Notes: a model not told the origin generated them from the sequence alone. A stretch of DNA of 64,000 nucleotides from Desulfuromonadales bacterium (GCA_016931615.1 JAFGEL010000040.1:1-64000), one strand, 5' to 3'. Shown: positions 46,094 through 58,509, counted from the first letter of the stretch. Program-made: numbers and translations.

Positions 46094-46552
46094 TCAAACC
46101 GTCAATGGAAATTCACGTTTCAGAAGACCGAAGATTTCACTTTCCTTGGCCTCCATCCGTTCAGCATCTTCAAGACTGCCGCGTTCATGATCATATCCCA
46201 CCAGATGGAGAATGCCGTGAAGCAGCAAAAACCAGAGCTCATGTTCAAAAGGGACACCGGCTTCACGGGCATCGTCAGCAGCCCTCTCAGCTGAAATAAC
46301 GACGTCACCCAGAATCAGGGGATGCAAACCGGCGCCTTCTCCCTCCTGCATCGCAAAAGAGATGACGTTCGTCGGTCTGTCCCGCTTCAGATAGTCCCGA
46401 TTGATAAGCTGAATTCCGGCGTTATCGACAATCAGAATCGACAACTCGGCGTCAGGATATCCCAAGGCGCTTAAGATCCTCAGGGCGACTTTTCGCATGG
46501 GCCGCTTCAGGATCCTGTATTTCTTCTGGCGATTTTCTATCTGGACCTGCAC
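46094..46552 (-). CDS. ybeY: Endoribonuclease YbeY
   Basis: About 152 residues. The zinc motif HGILHLVGYDH is intact and RPTNVISFAM precedes it. YbeY matures 16S rRNA 3' ends and takes part in ribosome quality control. GTG at 46552, with GGAG six bases upstream, gives the normal N-terminus; this means the gene starts about 100 bases inside the end of pgpH. Confidence 0.95.
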   Translation of the reverse strand: MQVQIENRQKKYRILKRPMRKVALRILSALGYPDAELSILIVDNAGIQLINRDYLKRDRPTNVISFAMQEGEGAGLHPLILGDVVISAERAADDAREAGVPFEHELWFLLLHGILHLVGYDHERGSLEDAERMEAKESEIFGLLKREFPLTV

Positions 46553-48866
46553 CTCTGGCTCCGATCTTCTGTTCCGGTGAAAGTTTCGCCTCCACGGCAG
46601 TTTTTTCACGCACAATGTGTACCGGTTCAGGATAATCAACGCGGTGATGAAATGAGCTGGAAAGAACCCGGTTGAAACTCTTGGCAATCATGTTCAGATC
46701 TTTCAGGGTCAGATCGCACTCATCCAGCTGACCATCAATAAAAATATTGTTGATCAGCTTTTTCACCATACCCTGAATCCGCGCCGGAGTGGGGTCCGTC
46801 AACGTCCGGCTGGCCGCCTCAACGGCGTCTGCCAGCATGATCAGGGCCGCCTCACGCGTCTGCGGCTTGGGACCATGGTAGCGATAATCGCGCTCATCAA
46901 CCTGCTGCATACCGGGATCCGCGAGACTTTTGGCCCGATCATAAAAAAACTTGATCAGGGTTGTCCCGTGGTGCTGCTGAATGATGTCGATCAGCTCGGC
47001 TCCCAGTTTGTGCTCCCGGGCCAGTTCCACGCCATCTTTGACATGAGAGGTCAGGATCAGGGCACTCATCGAAGGCGCAAGTTTATCGTGTTTGTTGCGC
47101 TGCCCGCCGGAATTTTCAATAAAATAAAGCGGTTTCCTGATCTTGCCGATATCATGGTAATAAGCCGAAACCCGGGCCAGAAGAGGATTTGCGCTGATCG
47201 ACTCGGCGGCAGCCTCGGCGAGGTTACCGACCAGGATCGAATGGTGATATGTCCCGGGAGCCTCAATCATCAGCTGGCGCAGAATCGGCGCGTTCATATT
47301 TGCCAGTTCCAGCAATTTAATGTCGGTCGTGTATTTAAAGAATGACTCCACCAGGGGGACCGTGCCATTGACAAAAACAGCGCTGATCAAACCGCCGAAA
47401 AATCCGAATCCGAGTTTCCACAGCAGTTCCAGTTCGGCATTACGGCCGGCCAGTAGATGAATCCCCAACAGCAGGGCCATGTTCGTCAGCCCGATCCACA
47501 AGCCCGCGCGATACAAAGTTGTCCGCGCCTGGCACTGCCGTACGCCATGCGCCCCGACGAGGCTTGCAGCGAGCGCGTAGAGAGCCATCAGCAGACTGTT
47601 ACCGAACAGGATACCTACCAGCACGGCACTGCACACGGCAAACAGAAAAGCGGTCTCCGAGTTGAGGACAATCCGCACCAGCATGGCTCCCAAGGCAAAG
47701 GGAATGGCATAAAAATAAACTGTGGAATCGATATAGGCAAAGGTGTTGCCCATACCGGTGCTGATGAAAATCGACACTTTGGTGAGGAGAAACTGGGAGA
47801 GGAAAACCACCGCCAAAAAGATCAGGTCGCGTGAATCCGGGTGAAATTTGCTGATGTTTCCGCGGGCAAAATGAAAGCCGACATAGATCAGCAGCAAAAT
47901 ACAAATCAGCAAACCTGCTGCGGTCTGCAAGCTTCTGTTGTCGCGCCCTGATTCCCTGATCGCCCTGAGTTTGAGGATCTGGTCGGCGCTGACCCGCTCC
48001 CCTTCCCGGACCACCATTTCACCTTTTTTGATCTGAAACAGAACCGGTGCCACCTGCTCCTCAGCGGCGATTTTGCGCTTTTCGGTCTCCGGCTGATCGA
48101 ATAACAGGTTCGGACGCAACTGCTGTTGCACCAGTTTGAGCAACGTCTGCTGCTGCAGGGCTGACATCCCGGGAATCTGGGTCAGGGCCTCTTTGGCCTG
48201 TGAGAGCGCATCATTTAGACTGATGGTCCTGTCAAGCAGGGCGGCATTCAGTTCTTCGCCACTGTTGCGATCAAGCAGCATGAGACCCTGAAGACGATCC
48301 TTCTCAAAGGAGGCAAAGCTGGCCACGATCGGCAAGGCAAAAACCGGACGCAGAGCATCAACAGTAGAGACGGCCAGGTCACGATCAAGGGGTAATTTGA
48401 TCAGGGGCCTGAACTCGTCCCCGGTCAGAGGAACGCCAAAATCAGCCTCCAGCTGCTGGAGCAGAATTTCCGGGCTTTGTCGGTCTTCAACTCCGCTCTG
48501 TTGCTGCAGCAACAGCTCAAGCCCGCTCTTCAGGCGCCTGATCGCTTCTACACCCAAGAGCCTGTCAAACTGATAAACCAACGGCACGGCATTGGCCGCT
48601 TCGAGCCGCTTGGCCCGGGTCAGCTCCACATCTTCAACGAGCAGATCACGTGGCGATTTAATATCCCGTGAAGCAACGTCCCCCGGAGCGTGATAATCGG
48701 GGATCAGTCCTCCTTTGGGGACAATGATCAGAGTCAGCAACAGTGCTACAGTCAACAGCAGCCAGCCTCCGAGGCGATTCTTCTGTCTATGCCTCAGGCT
48801 CTGAACCCCTTCGCCGAAAATCGCGGCACGCCCCTGCTGCGATTTGTTTTTTTCTTCTTTGGTCAT
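46452..48866 (-). CDS. pgpH: 7TM-HD (PgpH-type) cyclic-dinucleotide phosphodiesterase
   Basis: 804 residues. One N-terminal helix, a large extracytoplasmic domain (7TMR-HDED, about 60-330), seven helices (about 340-540), and a cytoplasmic HD domain with AYYHDIGKI and QHHGTTLIKFFYDRA. Characterised PgpH proteins hydrolyse c-di-AMP. No diadenylate cyclase gene is in the window. Acidic, low-complexity C-terminus overlaps ybeY. Confidence 0.94.
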   Translation of the reverse strand: MTKEEKNKSQQGRAAIFGEGVQSLRHRQKNRLGGWLLLTVALLLTLIIVPKGGLIPDYHAPGDVASRDIKSPRDLLVEDVELTRAKRLEAANAVPLVYQFDRLLGVEAIRRLKSGLELLLQQQSGVEDRQSPEILLQQLEADFGVPLTGDEFRPLIKLPLDRDLAVSTVDALRPVFALPIVASFASFEKDRLQGLMLLDRNSGEELNAALLDRTISLNDALSQAKEALTQIPGMSALQQQTLLKLVQQQLRPNLLFDQPETEKRKIAAEEQVAPVLFQIKKGEMVVREGERVSADQILKLRAIRESGRDNRSLQTAAGLLICILLLIYVGFHFARGNISKFHPDSRDLIFLAVVFLSQFLLTKVSIFISTGMGNTFAYIDSTVYFYAIPFALGAMLVRIVLNSETAFLFAVCSAVLVGILFGNSLLMALYALAASLVGAHGVRQCQARTTLYRAGLWIGLTNMALLLGIHLLAGRNAELELLWKLGFGFFGGLISAVFVNGTVPLVESFFKYTTDIKLLELANMNAPILRQLMIEAPGTYHHSILVGNLAEAAAESISANPLLARVSAYYHDIGKIRKPLYFIENSGGQRNKHDKLAPSMSALILTSHVKDGVELAREHKLGAELIDIIQQHHGTTLIKFFYDRAKSLADPGMQQVDERDYRYHGPKPQTREAALIMLADAVEAASRTLTDPTPARIQGMVKKLINNIFIDGQLDECDLTLKDLNMIAKSFNRVLSSSFHHRVDYPEPVHIVREKTAVEAKLSPEQKIGARGAGPDRKSPEEIQDPEAAHAKSRPEDLKRLGIS

Positions 48867-48896
48867 ATTTTTCCGAACTCTCCCATCAGCATGACG

Positions 48897-49883
48897 CTAC
48901 CCCACGCTGCGGGGGGTTCGCTCCGTATTCCGGCGGTCGGCCCGCTGATAAGCCTGGACAATCGCCTGAACAATCGGATGACGGACAACGTCCTGATCAC
49001 TGAAATGAGTGAAGGCAATCCCGGGAACTCCCACGAGAACTTCGATGGCATGTAACAGGCCGGAATGGCAGCCGCGCGGCAGGTCGATCTGGGTGACATC
49101 TCCGGTGATCACCGCCCTGCTGCCGAAACCGAGTCGGGTCAGAAACATTTTCATCTGCTCGGCGGTCGTATTCTGAGCTTCATCCAGAATCACAAACGCA
49201 TCATTCAGCGTGCGGCCCCGCATGAAAGCCAGGGGAGCAACCTCAACCACGCCGCTTTCAACCATGGTCCGGGCCTTTTCCAAATCGGTCATATCGTACA
49301 AGGCATCGTACAGCGGGCGCAGGTAGGGATTCACCTTCTCGGCCAGATCACCCGGCAGGAAACCGAGTTTTTCTCCCGCTTCCACCGCAGGACGGACCAG
49401 CATGATACGGCTGACTTCCTTGCGCATCAGTGCCGCGACCCCCATCGCCATAGCCAGGTAGGTTTTGCCGGTTCCGGCCGGACCGACACCGAAGACGACA
49501 TGGTTTTCACGGATGTTATCGATGTAACTCTTCTGAGCGAGGCTTTTAGGGGTGATAATTTTGTTGCGCGCGGAAACAAAAACCGTATCCAGGAAAATGT
49601 CGCGTAACGATGTGGATGAATCGGCAGAAAGAATTCGAACGGCGTAATCGATATCGGCAGGATAAAGAGGCATGTCCTCCCGCAACAGCAGGCTGAGCTC
49701 CTCGAGAAGGCGCAAACCGACCTCGACCTGCGCAGGATCACCTGAGAGATGAACCTGGGTACCCTGGCTCCCAAGACGAATCCCGAGTTGTTTTTCGATC
49801 AGTTTTAAATGCTTGTTCTGTTGGCCGAACAGTTGCACAGCCAGAGCCGCATCGCCGACATCAAAGTGTTTGTGCAGGCTCAT
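48897..49883 (-). CDS. phoH: PhoH family ATPase
   Basis: 328 residues. Walker A GPAGTGKT, LVRPAVEAGEKLGFLPGDL, and Walker B FVILDEAQN are PhoH-like. N-terminal KH-like region (GSQGTQVHLSGDPAQVEVGLRLLEEL). The neighbours pgpH and ybeY match a conserved ribosome-related operon. Divergent from the HEAT/HD-GYP module. Confidence 0.96.
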   Translation of the reverse strand: MSLHKHFDVGDAALAVQLFGQQNKHLKLIEKQLGIRLGSQGTQVHLSGDPAQVEVGLRLLEELSLLLREDMPLYPADIDYAVRILSADSSTSLRDIFLDTVFVSARNKIITPKSLAQKSYIDNIRENHVVFGVGPAGTGKTYLAMAMGVAALMRKEVSRIMLVRPAVEAGEKLGFLPGDLAEKVNPYLRPLYDALYDMTDLEKARTMVESGVVEVAPLAFMRGRTLNDAFVILDEAQNTTAEQMKMFLTRLGFGSRAVITGDVTQIDLPRGCHSGLLHAIEVLVGVPGIAFTHFSDQDVVRHPIVQAIVQAYQRADRRNTERTPRSVG

Positions 49884-50040: not shown

Positions 50041-52188
50041 GTGAACCGGCAGAAAGACATCCCACAGGCAATCAACCCCGACAAACCTCTTTTAAGCAGT
50101 TTCCTTCACGAACTGAACCTGTCCAGACGCAAACTCGCGCTTTACCCCACTAATCACCCCCAGATCAGCACCTCAACGGAAAAGACCCTTGGACTGCTCA
50201 ACGATCTGTTCCATTCAAAGCGCACGATCAGTCTGGGCATCACTCCCCGCGCGATATTATTTGAGCAACAGTGGCTGGACAAAGAGGATTCCGCCAATCT
50301 TGAGTTTGCGCGGTTTTTTTCGTCGCTGGGAATCGCCTCGGTAAGCTTTCACTTCGGGCTTCAGGGTCAGGAACTGATCCGCTTTAACCAATTGCTCCGC
50401 TCCGATCGCGAGACGATTGAATCTTTTGGTGGGTTCGAACGCCTGCTTGAAGATCAGCAGATCGAGCATGTGTCTGTCATCCCCGTCGACTACGCCGCCT
50501 TTCAGTCGAGCAAAAATCTTATCGCCCAGCAGGATCAGCTCTGGGACATGTTTCTTCATGGCCTGCAGAACGGCATTCTCGACTTCGGAGAGAGTGATTC
50601 GGCAGATGACATCTCCACGGTTGCCGATCTGTTCAATGAGAAATTCTCTGCCGGGGACAGACCTGCAGAAGACTTCTCCCGGAGTCTTGATCAATATATT
50701 GAAAAGCGTATTCAGGATCATGCAGGGACTCAGACCGTCACGGAAACCGACCGGCGTTTCAATTCTCTGCTTGAGCAACTCACCCCGGAGGCACGGAACC
50801 AGATCTTCTCCAGCATTTTCAGGGTCCTCGACCGTGACCACACCCATGCGCCGGGATTACTCAAGAAACTTCCATCCCGGCTGGTGCATGACGCCATCAA
50901 CAGCAAAACCCGGCAGAACCTGAAGATCTCTTCACGGCTTTTCGCCCTGGCAACCACTCTGGCCACTGGTGCGTCTTCTGAGTTTGAACGAAAAGTGGCC
51001 TCGCCATCGGAGCAACTCTCCGCGGATATGGTTCGTGCCCGACTTGACGTGCTTTTCAGCGAAGAGCGCCAGGATCTTTACATGCCGTCGCGTTATCAGG
51101 CGGCACTGGACAGCATGCTGAGTTGTGATATCTCCGGCAGTATTCCCGAGGATGTTAAACTGAACCTGAAAGAACAGTTGGAAACACAATCGACGGAACG
51201 CAACACCCTGGCGATTCTGCTTGACATGCTGCATCAGCCGATAGCAGCCGACCAGGAGAATGCCATTCAGCAGAACCTGCTTGAACTTTCGCGCTTTTTT
51301 CTCGACACCGGCGACTTCCGCAGCCTCAAGGATATTTTTCAATCCTGGTCGCGCTACCTCTATGGCGGCCAGGCGCATGCAAGTATCTTTGATGAAAAAG
51401 TCCTGGCGAACCATACTCAACAGAGTTTTATGGCTGAAGTCATCGACGCATTTGAACTCTGGGAAGAAGACAGCCACTCCGATATCATCGCCTACATCAC
51501 CACGGTTGGAGAACCCTACAGTGACCTGATCATCGAACAGCTCGGGCTGGCCCCAACCTGGCAGGAGAGACGCCTGTTGATGCAGCTCCTCGGAGGGCTC
51601 GGCGGAGATGCGCAACAAAAAATCATCAGGGCCCTCGACGACGAACGCTGGTATCTCCAGCGCAACCTGCTCACCGTGCTGGGCAAAACCCTGGATCCAA
51701 AAAACATCAAAACCATTCAGCAGCTCTGTCACCACGAGCATCCCCAGGTGCGCAAGGAGGCGGTGCGGATTCTTTTTATCTGCAACCCGGCGACAGCCAA
51801 CCGGCAATTACTTGCCGACCTGGCCGGCGACGACCCGCTGGCCCGTCTGGCAGCCATAGACATTGCCGATCTGAGTAGCGACCCGAAGGTTCTCGGCCTG
51901 CTGCACAAAACCCTTGAACAGGACCCCGGCAACGATCAGGAGTTGAAAATTCTCCAGGCGACGGTCCGCACGCTGGTTCGCATCGGCAACCAGGAGAGTC
52001 TGCCGATTTTCAGGCGGGTCCTGAAAAAATCTGGCCTGCTGGTCAATCGTCGCATTCGCCAGCTTCAGCTCGAAATCATCCAGGGTCTTGGGCAGTTCCC
52101 GGGCCGGCGCGCGACGCAACTGCTTGATGAGCTGTCAACCGGGAAATTCAAGCAGAAAGCTCTTATCGCCCGGGAGCAACGCCAATGA
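50041..52188 (+). CDS. HEAT-repeat protein, copy 1 of a duplicated module
   Basis: 715 residues, no signal peptide or membrane helix. Residues about 18-120 form a domain with ALYPTNHPQI (33-42), an alternating strand region, and GLQGQELIRFNQLL. Copy 2 (53421) aligns with it without gaps here, and the following HD-GYP protein seems to begin with the same domain. The middle is mainly helical. From about 495 to 700 come HEAT-like repeats (ALDDERWYLQRNLLTVLGK, HPQVRKEAVRILF). GTG start with GAGGA upstream. It overlaps the HD-GYP gene by four bases, so the products are likely partners. Function unknown. Confidence 0.85.
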   Translation: MNRQKDIPQAINPDKPLLSSFLHELNLSRRKLALYPTNHPQISTSTEKTLGLLNDLFHSKRTISLGITPRAILFEQQWLDKEDSANLEFARFFSSLGIASVSFHFGLQGQELIRFNQLLRSDRETIESFGGFERLLEDQQIEHVSVIPVDYAAFQSSKNLIAQQDQLWDMFLHGLQNGILDFGESDSADDISTVADLFNEKFSAGDRPAEDFSRSLDQYIEKRIQDHAGTQTVTETDRRFNSLLEQLTPEARNQIFSSIFRVLDRDHTHAPGLLKKLPSRLVHDAINSKTRQNLKISSRLFALATTLATGASSEFERKVASPSEQLSADMVRARLDVLFSEERQDLYMPSRYQAALDSMLSCDISGSIPEDVKLNLKEQLETQSTERNTLAILLDMLHQPIAADQENAIQQNLLELSRFFLDTGDFRSLKDIFQSWSRYLYGGQAHASIFDEKVLANHTQQSFMAEVIDAFELWEEDSHSDIIAYITTVGEPYSDLIIEQLGLAPTWQERRLLMQLLGGLGGDAQQKIIRALDDERWYLQRNLLTVLGKTLDPKNIKTIQQLCHHEHPQVRKEAVRILFICNPATANRQLLADLAGDDPLARLAAIDIADLSSDPKVLGLLHKTLEQDPGNDQELKILQATVRTLVRIGNQESLPIFRRVLKKSGLLVNRRIRQLQLEIIQGLGQFPGRRATQLLDELSTGKFKQKALIAREQRQ

Positions 52189-53345
52189 GACATCATTCTC
52201 ATCCAGCCGAGAGCTATTTTCAGACCTGGGCACGACTGCTGACCACAGCCGCCGCCAATGCCGCTCTGTATCATCCGCAGCATCGCCAGGTGCTGAGACT
52301 CAACCGGCAGACCCTTGAAGCCCTGCAGAAGATTTTCGCCCAACAGGGAAGCTTGACGGTCAAAATCATTGACGAACAGGTGATTTTTGCCGACCAGCCG
52401 GTCATGAACAACCTCTCGGTCGAAAGACTGCAGAACGCCCTGACCCGCAACGGCATCAGCCACCTCCATATTGAACCCGGTATTTACGCCGAAGAACTGC
52501 TCGGACTGGTCAACATTCTAAGTAAAAATCCCGACATCCAGACGAACATTTCCGACAGTGAACACATCGCTTACGGCAGGGTGGCAATCCGTTATCAGCA
52601 GACGGCCGGCAGGTCGGCCCCTGTTCTCGACCTGTCCGATATCGTCGGTTTTGAAGCTGATCGCTACATGGATATCTATGACCGAGTGAAAAAGAAACAG
52701 AAACTTGAATTGTCCGGCATTGAGGAGATCGTCAGCGGCTTCATCAATGCCTTCAACAGTCAGAGCGAAGCATTTCTGGCGATTGCGCCGCTGCGCTCCA
52801 TGGATGAATATACCTACACCCATTCAACCAATATCTGCATGCTCAACCTGGCCCAGGCGAAGGTTCTCGGCATCGAGGGACAACTGCTCAATGACATCGG
52901 TATCGCTGCCATGCTTCACGATGTGGGAAAAATGTTTATCTCTCCGGAAATCCTCAGCAAATCGGAGCAGCTGAACGAAGATGAATGGCGAATCATGCAA
53001 CAGCACCCGCGCCTCGGAGCCGAATACCTGATCAACACACCGGGCGTGCCACGCCTGGCCGTCGTGACGGCATTTGAACATCACATGCGCTACGATCATC
53101 AGGGCTACCCTCAAACAACTCAACCCTGGCCGCAACACCTGGCCTCTCAGATGACCGCCATTTCCGATACCTATGATGCAATGCGAACCCATCGGGCCTA
53201 TGAAGAAGCCCTGGAACTGGATCAGATCATGGCCATCATGCTTGACCTGGCAGGAACCAAACTTCACCCCCAACTGACCTACAGTTTCTTACAGGTCCTC
53301 AGCGGATTTGATAAAAATACTCCCGACCAGAATAATATTTGTTAA
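52185..53345 (+). CDS. HD-GYP protein, copy 1 of the duplicated module
   Basis: 386 residues. N-terminal domain (about 18-115) with AALYHPQHRQV and EPGIYAEELLGLVNIL, matching the neighbour's N-terminus. The HD-GYP domain (about 195-375) has THSTNIC, HD at 245-246 (AMLHDVGKM), HH at 299-300, but DHQGYP (304-309) instead of DGxGYP. HD-GYP enzymes degrade c-di-GMP; the altered glycine may affect this. The ATG overlaps the HEAT gene stop. Confidence 0.9.
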   Translation: MRHHSHPAESYFQTWARLLTTAAANAALYHPQHRQVLRLNRQTLEALQKIFAQQGSLTVKIIDEQVIFADQPVMNNLSVERLQNALTRNGISHLHIEPGIYAEELLGLVNILSKNPDIQTNISDSEHIAYGRVAIRYQQTAGRSAPVLDLSDIVGFEADRYMDIYDRVKKKQKLELSGIEEIVSGFINAFNSQSEAFLAIAPLRSMDEYTYTHSTNICMLNLAQAKVLGIEGQLLNDIGIAAMLHDVGKMFISPEILSKSEQLNEDEWRIMQQHPRLGAEYLINTPGVPRLAVVTAFEHHMRYDHQGYPQTTQPWPQHLASQMTAISDTYDAMRTHRAYEEALELDQIMAIMLDLAGTKLHPQLTYSFLQVLSGFDKNTPDQNNIC

Positions 53346-53380
53346 TTTTCATTTTATTTTATTTATTTTTATCTTATAAT
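53346..53380 (+). promoter_or_regulatory. AT-rich promoter region of module copy 2
   Basis: About 50 bases are almost pure A+T and contain TATAAT (53375-53380), 40 bases before the GTG start of copy 2. The -35 is not clear. The region may act like an UP element. Confidence 0.4.
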
Positions 53381-53420
53381 TTCTCAACTGAAAACTTGAT
53401 CTGTCTGCCTCGGGGGAAAA

Positions 53421-55604
53421 GTGCCACACAACTCAGAAAGATCCGCAACGATTGATCTGGATACCCAACTGCTGTCCGATTTCATCTATGCCCTTAACAT
53501 CGCCAGGCGCCAGCTGGCCCTTTATCCACCCGAGCACCCTCAAATTCAGGCCAGCAGTGAAGCCGCTCTGGCCATTTTCGCCAAACTCTGCCAGTTCAGA
53601 GAGACTATTACCCTGGGCGTTGCCCCCGAGACCCTGGTCTTTGAAAACAACTGGCTGGATGGCAGCAATCCTGTTTATCGGGATTTTTCTCACTTTCTTT
53701 CCGCTCTCGATATCGCCGCCATCAGTTTCCACAGCGGCCTCGACGCTCAAGAACTGATACAATTCAACCAGATTCTCAGTCAAAGCTGGCCAGAGGGTGA
53801 AGAAGCTAATGATATCCCACAGCGGCTGGCGATCGCGAACATCACTCATGTTGCGGTAATGCCCGTCAACTACGCCGTCTTTCAAGGCGCCGAAGGCGCA
53901 GCCCAAGAAACCGAATCCGGTCTGCTGTGGGAGGACTTTCTTCACGGACTGCTCGGCGAGCAGCTGGATCCGGATGGCCATGCTATCGGCGTAGCGGACC
54001 GGCTCAACAGCGAACTGCTGGCTGAGATCATGAACAGTTCGGAACAGGGGCTAAGTGGTAAAAATATTGATTACGACCAGGTCATCAGCTCGTTTGTGGC
54101 TAAAATACAGGGACAGGAACAGCAGTCACTCGGTGCAGTCAGCGCAGAGTTCGGCCAGTTGACCCAGAAGCTCAACCCCGCAATGAAACGTAATTTTCTC
54201 AACAGCACCTTTCGAGCCCTCAGGCAGCATCCACAGGCCGCTGAAACGCTGCTTCAGAACTTTCCCCAGGAGCTGCTCCAGGCGTCCCTTCACCACGTCA
54301 ATTCGCAGGAAGACAATATATCAGCGCGGCTCGTTGACCTGCTGGGACAATTTTCGACTGCGGCCAGCAGCGACAAGCACCTGACCTCCGGAACCTCGGC
54401 AAAACTTCCGGACGAGATTTTACAATCACGCATCGATGTCCTGCTGCTTGAAGACAATCATGACGAGTTTCTTCCCAGTGACTATCAGAAAACGTTAGAT
54501 AAAATTTTAACCGGCGAAATCCGCGGAACCATAGAACCTCAGATGGCCCGCGACCTGAAAAACAATCTGGAGAAACAATCAGTCGAAAAACAGTGCTGCA
54601 CAATTATCTTCAATATGCTGCACAACCGGGTCGATCAGGACGTCGAAAACCTGCTTCAGGACAATCTGTCCGAACTGTCCCATTTCTTTCTCGACACCGG
54701 TGATTTTCAGGCCCTCAGAGACATCTACCTGGGCTGGTCTCAACATCTCTACAACGGCATGGCCCAGGCACGCTTTCTGGATGAAAAGGTCCTGGCCGAA
54801 CATACCGGGGATGTCTTCATGAACCTGGTGCTCGACAGCATTGAGTTGTGGGGCAAAGACAAGTATGACGACATCTGCGCTTACATCAAAGAGATTGGCG
54901 AACCCTATACCGAACTATTGATTGAGCGACTGGCCAACGATGAGCAGATGAGCCAGAGAAAAACCTGGATGAAACTCCTTGTTGAACTCGGGAAAAAAGG
55001 CCACCAGATTATCTTCCAACATCTGGATGACAAACGCTGGTACCTGATCCGCAACCTGCTGATCGTCCTCGGCAAGCAGAGAGAAGCCATGCCGATGAAA
55101 GCAGTCCACCAGTTGACCGCGCACCCTCACCCGAAAGTCCGCCAGGAGGCGATCAGAATCCTCTTCCGCCTCAACCCGGCCACGGCGAATCGCCTGCTGC
55201 TGAAGGAGCTGTCCAGCGGCAACCGGCAGTCGCTTCCGGCGGCCGTGCAACTGGCTGAAATCAGTCAGGATGACAAGGTGCTCAATCAACTGCACCACCT
55301 TCTTCAGTCAGAAGGCCATACGGAAGAAGATTTCGCCCTGAAGAAGCAGATCCTCAACACCCTGGCATTTCTGGGTCGACCGGAAAGCATTCCTGTCCTG
55401 GCAAAACTGCTCAAAAAGAGGGGGTTTATCCGCTCCCGCAGAGACAAGGACTTTCACCAGGAGATTATCAACCACCTGGGGGCCTACCCAAGACATGCCA
55501 GCGAGCCCCTGCTTAACGCCATCATCAACGGCCGCGACCGCAGCGCAAGCCACCTGGCGAGAAGGCAGATCGAACTGCACCAGGTTCAAGGAGCACCAAA
55601 GTGA
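53421..55604 (+). CDS. HEAT-repeat protein, copy 2 of a duplicated module
   Basis: 727 residues, colinear with copy 1 over its whole length. The N-terminal domain (18-120) reads ALYPPEHPQI and GLDAQELIQFNQIL at the same positions. A shared central stretch is FFLDTGDF, then DEKVLAEHT. The HEAT region is near 510-720 (HLDDKRWYLIRNLLIVLGK, HPKVRQEAIRILFRLNPATANR). Divergence from copy 1 is large, so the duplication is old. GTG start. Overlaps the next gene by four bases. Confidence 0.85.
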   Translation: MPHNSERSATIDLDTQLLSDFIYALNIARRQLALYPPEHPQIQASSEAALAIFAKLCQFRETITLGVAPETLVFENNWLDGSNPVYRDFSHFLSALDIAAISFHSGLDAQELIQFNQILSQSWPEGEEANDIPQRLAIANITHVAVMPVNYAVFQGAEGAAQETESGLLWEDFLHGLLGEQLDPDGHAIGVADRLNSELLAEIMNSSEQGLSGKNIDYDQVISSFVAKIQGQEQQSLGAVSAEFGQLTQKLNPAMKRNFLNSTFRALRQHPQAAETLLQNFPQELLQASLHHVNSQEDNISARLVDLLGQFSTAASSDKHLTSGTSAKLPDEILQSRIDVLLLEDNHDEFLPSDYQKTLDKILTGEIRGTIEPQMARDLKNNLEKQSVEKQCCTIIFNMLHNRVDQDVENLLQDNLSELSHFFLDTGDFQALRDIYLGWSQHLYNGMAQARFLDEKVLAEHTGDVFMNLVLDSIELWGKDKYDDICAYIKEIGEPYTELLIERLANDEQMSQRKTWMKLLVELGKKGHQIIFQHLDDKRWYLIRNLLIVLGKQREAMPMKAVHQLTAHPHPKVRQEAIRILFRLNPATANRLLLKELSSGNRQSLPAAVQLAEISQDDKVLNQLHHLLQSEGHTEEDFALKKQILNTLAFLGRPESIPVLAKLLKKRGFIRSRRDKDFHQEIINHLGAYPRHASEPLLNAIINGRDRSASHLARRQIELHQVQGAPK

Positions 55605-56740
55605 GTCAGCACGATAAACATCTGCAGCTGTTTATCCGTCAGATAACTACCGCCGCAGCCAACGCGGCGCTCTATCAGTTGGAGCATCCACAGGTTCTCA
55701 ACCTGTGCAGGCAGGCCCTTGATCAGTTAAAAATTCTCTTCAGCCAGACCCCCGAGATCACTTTCAAAATCATCGAAAACCGTCTGATCTTTGCCGACCA
55801 CCCGGTCACCAGCAACCTTTCGGTTGAACGCTTTGTCGAGGCGTTAAAAGCGCTGAAGATCAGCTTTATCCAGATCTCTCCCGGACTGACCACTGAAGAA
55901 TTACTGATTCTCGCGGGTCATCTGAGCAAAAGAACCGCCCAGCACCAGAACTTGAGGAAAACCGAGAATATCCGTTACGGTCAAGTTGAAGTTCGCTACC
56001 GTGACCCAGCCTCCGGACCCGAAAAATCCTCAGTTCTGGCCGATTTTTCCGCTATCAGCGAAAAAGACCGCGACAAGTTCATGGATATCTACCAGGGCGT
56101 GAGTCGCAAAAAACAGCTCAACGTCCTCGGAATCACCGAAATTGTCGCTGATTTCGTCAGCACCTTTGAAACCCACAGCAATATTCTTCTGGCGCTGGCA
56201 CCGCTGCGCTCCATGGACGAATACGCCTACACCCACTCGACCAATATCTGTCTGCTGAACCTGGCCCAGGCCAAACTGTTGGGGATAGAGGGGCCGCTAC
56301 TCAACGAGATTGGCGTTGCCGCCATGCTCCATGATGTCGGCAAGATGTTCATCTCCCCGGACATCCTGAACAAACCGGGCAAACTGGACCCGGACGAGTG
56401 GAAAATGATGCAGCAGCATCCCCAGTTGGGTGCGGAGTATCTGTTGAACGCTCCCGGCATCCCCCGCCTGGCGGTGGTGACCGCTTACGAACATCATATC
56501 GGCTACGACGGTCGAGGTTACCCGGCAACCCCCCGCAGCTGGCCGCTGAATACCTGCAGTTACATGACCAGCATCTCTGACGTTTACGATGCCCTGCGCA
56601 CCCGCCGTTCCTACAAGGAGCCGCTGACCTTCGACCAGATCAGCACCATCATGCTGGAGAGTGCGGGCAAATCCCTGCATCCCGACCTGACCCGGTCGTT
56701 TCTGAAGGCCCTGGCCGAACTGGAAAGCCCCTCACACTGA
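55601..56740 (+). CDS. HD-GYP protein, copy 2 of the duplicated module
   Basis: 379 residues. N-terminal domain (about 12-110) with AALYQLEHPQV and SPGLTTEELLILAGHL. HD-GYP domain with THSTNIC, HD (AMLHDVGKM), EHH, and canonical DGRGYP (303-308), so more likely an active c-di-GMP phosphodiesterase than copy 1. GTG start inside the end of the HEAT gene. No receiver domain is present, so input must come through the N-terminal domain or the partner. Confidence 0.9.
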   Translation: MSQHDKHLQLFIRQITTAAANAALYQLEHPQVLNLCRQALDQLKILFSQTPEITFKIIENRLIFADHPVTSNLSVERFVEALKALKISFIQISPGLTTEELLILAGHLSKRTAQHQNLRKTENIRYGQVEVRYRDPASGPEKSSVLADFSAISEKDRDKFMDIYQGVSRKKQLNVLGITEIVADFVSTFETHSNILLALAPLRSMDEYAYTHSTNICLLNLAQAKLLGIEGPLLNEIGVAAMLHDVGKMFISPDILNKPGKLDPDEWKMMQQHPQLGAEYLLNAPGIPRLAVVTAYEHHIGYDGRGYPATPRSWPLNTCSYMTSISDVYDALRTRRSYKEPLTFDQISTIMLESAGKSLHPDLTRSFLKALAELESPSH

Positions 56741-56832: not shown

Positions 56833-58509
56833 ATGAGCGAAGATACAAAAAAAATCATCTATTCGATGATGCGGGTCAGTAAAAGCTATAACAAACAACC
56901 GATTATCAAAGACATTTCCCTGTCCTATTTTTACGGTGCCAAAATCGGCGTTCTCGGCCTTAACGGCTCGGGAAAATCAACCCTGCTCAAGATCATGGCT
57001 GGGGTCGACAAGGAATTCAACGGTGAAGCGGTCTTATCGGAAGGCTACAGTGTCGGTTACCTGGAGCAGGAGCCACAGTTGGACGAGAGCAAAACCGTCC
57101 GCGAAGTGGTCAAGGAAGGAGTCCAGGAGATCGTCGACCTGCTGGCCGAATTCGAGGAGATCAACAACGCTTTTGCCGATCCAGACTGTGACATGGACAA
57201 GCTGCTGGCGCGCCAGGCTGAGGTCCAGGACAAACTCGACGCCGCTGATGCCTGGGAGCTCGACTCACGTCTTGAGCTGGCAGAAGAGGCCCTGCGCTGT
57301 CCTGCGCCCGAAACCCCGATCAAGGTTCTTTCCGGAGGGGAAAAAAGGCGGGTCGCCCTGTGTCGGCTGCTGTTGCGCAAACCCGACATCCTACTGCTCG
57401 ACGAGCCAACCAACCATCTCGACGCCGAAACCGTCGCCTGGCTGGAACAGCACCTGCAGCGTTACCAGGGGACCGTCATCGCCGTCACTCACGATCGCTA
57501 CTTCCTCGACAACGTCGCCGGCTGGATTCTCGAACTCGATCGCGGCCACGGCATCCCCTGGAAAGGCAACTATTCGAGCTGGCTGGAGCAGAAGCAGGAA
57601 CGCCTCAGACGTGAGGAAAAAACCGAAAGCAAACGTCAGCAGACCCTCCAGCGCGAACTTGAATGGATCCGCATGTCGCCCAAAGGCCGTCATGCCAAAG
57701 CCCAGGCGCGGATTAACTCTTATGAACAACTGCTCGGCAATGCCGGGCTGGAGAAAGAAAAAAGTCTCGAACTCTATATTCCACCGGGGCCACGTCTCGG
57801 TGATATCGTTGTTGAAAGCCGGAACGTCAGCAAGGGCTTTGGTGACCGATTACTGATCGACAACCTCAGCTTCAATCTGCCGGCCGGGGGCATCGTCGGG
57901 ATCATCGGTCCCAACGGGGCGGGAAAATCAACCCTGTTCAACATGATCACCGGCAAAGAGGCCGTCGACAGCGGCACGTTCAAAGTCGGTGAAACGGTGC
58001 GTCTCGGTTACGTCGACCAGAGCCGTGAACTGGACGGGAATAAAACCATCTGGGAAGAAATTACCGGAGGACAGGACCAGATCATGCTCGGTGGGCAATC
58101 CGTAAACTCGCGCGCCTACGTTGCCCGCTTCAATTTTTCCGGTGCCGATCAGCAGAAGAAGGTCGCGGTTCTCTCCGGTGGAGAGCGCAACCGCGTTCAC
58201 CTGGCCAAGATGCTGCGCGAAGAGGCCAACGTGCTGCTGCTCGACGAGCCGACCAACGACCTTGACGTCAACACCATGAGAGCCCTCGAAGAAGGCCTGG
58301 AAAATTTCGGCGGCTGCGCCGTGGTCATCAGTCACGATCGCTGGTTCTTAGACCGTATCGCCACCCACATGCTGGCTTTTGAGGGGGATTCGCAGGTCGT
58401 CTGGTTTGAAGGCAACTATTCCGAATACGAGGCCGATCGCAAGCGCCGCCTCGGCAAAGATGCCGACCAGCCGCAGCGCATCCGTTACCGTTCACTGACG
58501 CGCCAGTAA
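56833..58509 (+). CDS. ettA: Energy-dependent translational throttle protein EttA
   Basis: 558 residues, ABC-F family with two ATPase domains (GLNGSGKST and GPNGAGKST Walker [14 protein letters not shown] and [13 protein letters not shown] signatures) and no membrane part. The linker has the EttA stretch [20 protein letters not shown]. EttA binds the ribosomal E site and gates the first elongation step by ATP/ADP ratio. Confidence 0.97.

Follow-up and report, generated by a model that had tools for sequence, protein, structure and literature searches.

The locus at 50041-56740 of a Desulfuromonadales genome holds a gene for a HEAT-repeat protein followed by a gene for an HD-GYP protein, and this arrangement occurs twice in tandem. 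It raises the question whether each pair works as one unit and whether the two copies do the same work. In our study, this question was addressed by computational analysis of the window, which is the whole stretch of 64,000 nucleotides containing the locus, and of homologous loci from related genomes.

Organization of the locus

The region had been read in the initial annotation as a duplicated two-gene module; the reading frames, all four of which were recovered where they had been placed, the gene overlaps, the alignments and the Pfam domains confirm this. All features of the module are on the plus strand. The HEAT protein of the first pair (HEAT1; 50041..52188, 715 aa, GTG start) consists of an N-terminal domain, here called ALYP (residues 14-160; 50080..50520), a helical middle part and a C-terminal HEAT-repeat solenoid (residues 481-715; 51481..52185). 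Its partner HD1 (P0002; 52185..53345, 386 aa) carries an ALYP domain at residues 9-140 (52209..52604) and the HD-GYP domain at residues 160-375 (52662..53309). An A+T-rich gap of 75 bases (53346..53420) separates it from the second pair, in which HEAT2 (53421..55604, 727 aa) has its ALYP domain at 53448..53900 and its solenoid at 54873..55580, the borders of the latter being approximate and taken from the Pfam match and the alignment to HEAT1. HD2 (55601..56740, 379 aa) has the ALYP domain at 55613..55999 and the HD-GYP domain at 56078..56716.

The genes of each pair overlap by four bases, ATGA at 52185-52188 and GTGA at 55601-55604, as had been described. The start codons had also been said to follow one style, which is correct for the HEAT genes (GTG in both) but not for the HD-GYP genes, where HD1 begins with ATG and HD2 with GTG. 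End-to-end similarity of the copies was likewise borne out, with 38% identity over 710 aa (E 8e-167) between HEAT1 and HEAT2 and 55% identity over 371 aa (E 1e-149) between HD1 and HD2. Pfam recognized HEAT_2 in HEAT1 and HEAT2 and HD_5/HD in HD1 and HD2. Upstream, on the minus strand, are two divergent genes (46452..49883) coding for a PhoH-like protein (48897-49883) and a 7TM-HD protein resembling PgpH (46452-48866), whereas an EttA-like ABC-F protein is encoded downstream on the plus strand (56833..58509); the names of all three come from sequence reading. No RNA element in 40000-64000 exceeded the Rfam thresholds, and the promoter and terminator scan gave sites no commoner than in shuffled sequence.

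Conservation of the pair across genomes

A HEAT homologue is encoded in 58 of the 60 sampled relatives, the weaker matches among these covering the HEAT part alone. For the analysis of gene neighbourhood, 56 loci, mostly from the order Desulfuromonadales, were picked by their HEAT matches only. An HD-GYP gene follows directly on the same strand in 55 of them, the single exception being a contig end, and the two genes overlap by four bases in 41 loci and by one base in five. Recurrence in 55/56 homologous loci excludes chance as the origin of the arrangement and shows the pair to be a genuine and strictly conserved unit. A shorter and more divergent form of the pair (HEAT protein of ~530-600 aa, HD-GYP protein of ~450-480 aa) is found in the order and the phylum (L080, L081, L083 and L202). 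In Desulfuromusa kysingii a single pair was detected (L036). Pairs are also present outside the phylum of the window, in that of L043, an 'uncultured actinobacterium' record (L043, L187, L188, L193 and L194). The ALYP domain was detected in 83 of 197 genomes of the window's phylum and in 21 of 149 from the phylum of L043. No description of a HEAT/HD-GYP unit turned up in the literature searched, in agreement with the earlier suggestion that it is undescribed.

The surroundings of copy 1 are conserved too: the phoH-like and pgpH-like genes are found upstream, in divergent orientation, in about 20 loci, and in 19 the pair is followed by an ettA-like gene, as in the window. The 7TM-HD neighbour resembles PgpH, a c-di-AMP phosphodiesterase, so that two kinds of HD phosphodiesterase are adjacent in about 20 genomes. 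Copies that are split by a frameshift or contain an in-frame TGA were observed in L049 (4860-6948), L062 (4990-5931) and L072 (2112-4007), which may reflect errors of assembly, decay or recoding.

Co-evolution of the partners and history of the duplication

The maximum-likelihood trees of the two protein types are concordant in their main supported groups and the mirror-tree distances correlate with r = 0.94. In the seven tandem genomes the true assignment of partners ranks first among 128 possible swaps, any swap worsening the fit. The concordance and the best fit of the true pairing indicate that the pairs evolved as fixed units; they speak against the exchange of partners between copies that had been considered possible and argue for partners that stayed together.

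The second copy of the window clusters with the second copies of three other genomes (G008, G017 and G021) as the sister of the copy-1 clade. The hypothesis that the tandem second copies all share one origin was rejected by AU tests (HEAT p 4e-6, HD p 2e-4), by which the second copies of four other genomes represent an older paralogue. As judged from these trees, the second tandem position is occupied by two different paralogue lineages.

A common N-terminal domain

All four proteins open with a common domain of ~130 residues, which had been overlooked in the initial annotation. We coined the name ALYP for it from its conserved L-Y-P-x-x-H-P stretch. Within pair 2 the similarity of the HEAT2 and HD2 N-termini is already visible by BLASTP (E 4e-6), profiles of the HEAT type and of the HD type each find the other type across loci, and profile-profile comparison of the two N-domains gave a probability of 98.7% (E 2e-16). 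The predicted order of elements, helix-helix-strand-strand-helix-strand-helix-strand, is identical in the AlphaFold models of HD1 and HEAT1, which were built from eleven sequences each and have mean pLDDT values of 72 and 75, a moderate confidence.

A scan of 32 members for the domain (residues 14-160 of the HEAT and 9-140 of the HD proteins) gave no consistent Pfam or NCBIfam family, only isolated weak matches of one member each. No consistent PDB sequence match pointed to a known fold, the fold searches having dealt mostly with the HD and HEAT regions; the match to 4zv6, a designed protein, was taken as chance. In the genome of the window the ALYP domain is confined to these four proteins, and adjacent pairs account for 80 of 88 ALYP hits in 26 genomes.

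Class and likely activity of the HD-GYP partner

The partner had been taken for an HD-GYP protein, and it is a complete one by sequence, fold and motifs. HD1 matches PmGH (structure 4mcw) by sequence with E 1.8e-20, and Foldseek with the HD1 model retrieved the HD-GYP structures 4mcw (E 1.8e-7) and 4r8z (E 6e-6). The fold comparison gave VIA Z values of 19.7 to Bd1817 and 14.7 to 4mcw. The metal ligands of HD1 are H213, H245, D246, H274, H299, H300 and D328, and K249 and G307-Y308-P309 complete the motif. The seven-ligand set H...HD...H...HH...D is kept in all 55 HD-GYP partners, as are the GYP triad, the lysine near the metals (K249) and the aspartate D331 (also listed as D308); the D183 aspartate is kept in 54/55. 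The intact metal ligands make it likely that the partners are active phosphodiesterases.

Bellini et al. (PMC4159591) defined the Y/F and the trinuclear E/D-T-G subfamilies of HD-GYP proteins. The position of the eighth ligand of PmGH, E185, where the trinuclear type has a carboxylate, is occupied by tyrosine in 55/55 partners (Y209 in HD1), within the motifs Y-T-Y or Y-T-F. This tyrosine, together with the other seven ligands, places the partners in the Y/F subfamily (PMC4159591; PMC8177086), and the Y/F-type partners are thus probably dinuclear. The GYP region reads HHMxYDxxGYP and departs from the common HHExxDGxGYP.

The HEAT part and its fusions to GGDEF domains

That the C-terminal part of the HEAT proteins is an alpha-solenoid was upheld by HEAT_2 scores of 51.6 bits in HEAT1 (1.2e-13) and 39.6 bits in HEAT2 (6.6e-10), both above the curated cut-off of 27.7, as well as by the HEAT1 model and its Foldseek matches to alphaRep and HEAT structures. 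The HEAT proteins contain no catalytic domain.

Several other members of the window's phylum have ALYP-HEAT fused behind a GGDEF domain and a STAND-like ATPase (AAA_16) in one chain of ~1,400 residues, usually with two ALYP domains. Such fusions are encoded on the minus strand in L183 (50-4393 and 4896-8999), L184 (3039-7334) and L186 (1931-6256) and on the plus strand in L185 (2530-6774) and, partially, in L196 (60-3113); Pfam was run on those of L183, L185 and L196. The GGDEF domain of the fusions retains the AGDEF motif and the canonical Asp. No description of these fusions was found in the literature searched. Fusion to GGDEF in some lineages and pairing with HD-GYP in others tie ALYP-HEAT to both synthesis and degradation, and this independent line of evidence suggests a platform by which second-messenger enzymes are regulated. 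L189 (3658-7278), L190 (1076-4306) and L192 (3955-6930), from the phylum of L043, encode ALYP-HEAT proteins whose tails are long and rich in proline, with no HD-GYP gene detected beside them.

Substrate pocket and cyclic-dinucleotide context

In PmGH the contacts to the guanine of c-di-GMP are made by R314 and K317, with L310 packed against the nucleotide (PMC4159591). Arg at the R314 position is invariant among the 55 partners. The K317 position is Glu or Asp in 19/19 copy-1-clade proteins, Lys in 4/4 of the copy-2 clade and mostly Lys or Arg elsewhere, and the L310 position is Met in the same 19 proteins and Leu in the same four. HD1 accordingly has E340 and M333 at the K317 and L310 positions, whereas HD2 has Lys (in RSYKEPL) and Leu. 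The acidic change is placed on the tree as one event. Where lysine donates to the carbonyl of guanine, a Glu or Asp could instead accept the amino group of adenine. On the other hand, the R314A and K317A mutants of PmGH did not have substantially lowered activity (PMC4159591) and, by analogy, the copy-1 change at the K317 position may be of little consequence.

The same genome encodes a Rec-GGDEF protein with the Hypr serine (GHLAGS...GGDEF; L107/L148, G000:C55:6933-7394). This serine is a signature of cGAMP synthases (PMC6456294), and the protein is therefore a candidate cGAMP synthase, which makes 3',3'-cGAMP a candidate substrate of copy 1. Of the 60 genomes sampled from the order, 58 show a Hypr-like DNA pattern, whichever type of pair they have; since Hypr GGDEFs are nearly universal in the order, they show no specific correlation with the acidic copy-1 pocket. 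Five GEMM-I riboswitches (RF01051; L203-L207) were also observed in this genome. The substrates of HD-GYP enzymes vary, and PMC8177086 gives pGpG as preferred by PA4781 and cGAMP as preferred by PmxA, ascribing the selectivity of the latter to a glutamine near the active site. Copies 1 and 2 are probably specialised in substrate, as judged from their pocket residues.

Proposed mechanism and alternative explanations

On balance, it is reasonably probable that each pair constitutes a dedicated two-subunit, HEAT-controlled HD-GYP phosphodiesterase unit for cyclic dinucleotides, the tandem copies being probably specialised in substrate. This reading is favoured because of the pairing in 55/56 loci, the correlated trees, the common ALYP domain and the intact metal site, and because of the GGDEF fusions of ALYP-HEAT, the clade-specific changes at the K317 and L310 positions and the Hypr Rec-GGDEF protein. 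The enzyme type, a dinuclear Y/F HD-GYP, is well supported, whereas we infer the complex formation, the HEAT control, the catalytic activity and the substrate. One subunit would be the non-catalytic HEAT solenoid and the other the dinuclear (Tyr/Phe-type) enzyme, with the ALYP domain serving either as the site at which both recognize each other or as a common reader of a signal. The solenoid may act as an input or targeting arm, which by binding a partner protein would place or gate the enzyme. The overlapping stop and start codons would couple translation and so hold the ratio of subunits fixed. The tandem copies would then be two units with fixed partners, of which copy 1, with its altered nucleotide-contacting residues, would probably act on a different cyclic dinucleotide (with 3',3'-cGAMP as the candidate) than copy 2.

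The two proteins may also be co-expressed without forming a complex, their N-domains each binding a common small ligand or membrane partner and the HEAT protein acting elsewhere in the pathway, e.g. as an effector. Co-occurrence and co-divergence are expected from any shared pathway, many regulatory domains recur in one operon and yet do not bind one another, and the N-domain occurs with HEAT alone in larger proteins with no adjacent HD-GYP detected (L189, L190, L192 and L198). The near-invariant adjacency, the translational coupling and the presence of pairs in at least two phyla nevertheless exceed what is usual for membership in one pathway, and within the order the N-domain is used almost only in the HEAT/HD-GYP pair, so we regard the absence of a complex as rather unlikely. 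A less probable alternative concerns the substrate, which may not be an intact cyclic dinucleotide but, for instance, linear pGpG or pApG, with copies 1 and 2 differing in this respect. It would suit the altered base contacts of copy 1 and the variable range of HD-GYP substrates, for which PA4781 and PmxA are the examples (PMC8177086), but the invariant Arg at the R314 position and GYP Tyr, and GGDEF fusions that indicate cyclic dinucleotides, make it unlikely.

The least probable of the alternatives is an HD-GYP subunit that serves as a non-catalytic nucleotide receptor whose bound state is relayed by the HEAT protein. Catalytically dead HD-GYP receptors are known in sulfate-reducing relatives (DvhD of Desulfovibrio vulgaris, PMC13090378), and the HHMxYDxxGYP loop differs from the common one. 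DvhD shares the HD-GYP fold, but it is a membrane-bound protein with dCache and PAS domains that has lost the HD and HH ligands, whereas all ligands, the catalytic lysine and GYP are kept here in 55/55 partners over a large divergence; a dead receptor is therefore unlikely.

Comparison with known systems

The HD-GYP fold, the seven metal ligands, the catalytic Lys and Asp and the GYP triad are common to HD1, HD2, PmGH (4mcw), V-cGAP3 (5z7c) and the Y/F subfamily. In comparison to the known HD-GYP phosphodiesterases, however, the N-terminal domain is ALYP and not REC, GAF or PAS, the HEAT neighbour gene is obligatory and the GYP loop is of the HHMxYDxxGYP type; PmGH further differs from the present proteins in having E185 where they have Tyr, and K317 where the copy-1 clade has an acidic residue. 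In RpfC/RpfG a separate protein likewise feeds an HD-GYP enzyme (PMC4212101), whereas here there is no receiver domain and no kinase, and the partner is a HEAT solenoid with the enzyme's own N-terminal domain. The likeness to the Hypr GGDEF/cGAMP pathway of Geobacter (GacA) and to PmxA lies in the Hypr-serine Rec-GGDEF of this genome, whereas cGAMP hydrolysis by a HEAT-paired HD-GYP enzyme is hypothetical. The solenoid fold is like that of the PP2A A-subunit and other HEAT or alphaRep scaffolds, which does not imply functional homology. HD-GYP enzymes as such are known; what is new is the two-gene unit, the common ALYP domain and the GGDEF fusions.

A wider reading is offered tentatively, as possible though doubtful. 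ALYP may be an undescribed docking or sensing domain, through which one HEAT platform would control a phosphodiesterase in trans and, elsewhere, a diguanylate cyclase in cis behind a STAND-type ATPase. The unit would have been duplicated in this genus, one copy serving guanine-only signals and the other adenine-containing signals (cGAMP).

HD-GYP enzymes are usually viewed as controlled by sensor domains of the same chain. If the proposed unit is real, a separate HEAT subunit would be another way of gating or placing second-messenger turnover in at least two phyla, and a large set of hypothetical proteins annotated as 'HEAT repeat' would gain a testable role. Moreover, cGAMP controls extracellular metal respiration in Geobacter relatives, and the clade-specific change in the guanine contact would provide a concrete handle on how HD-GYP enzymes choose between c-di-GMP and cGAMP in these organisms.
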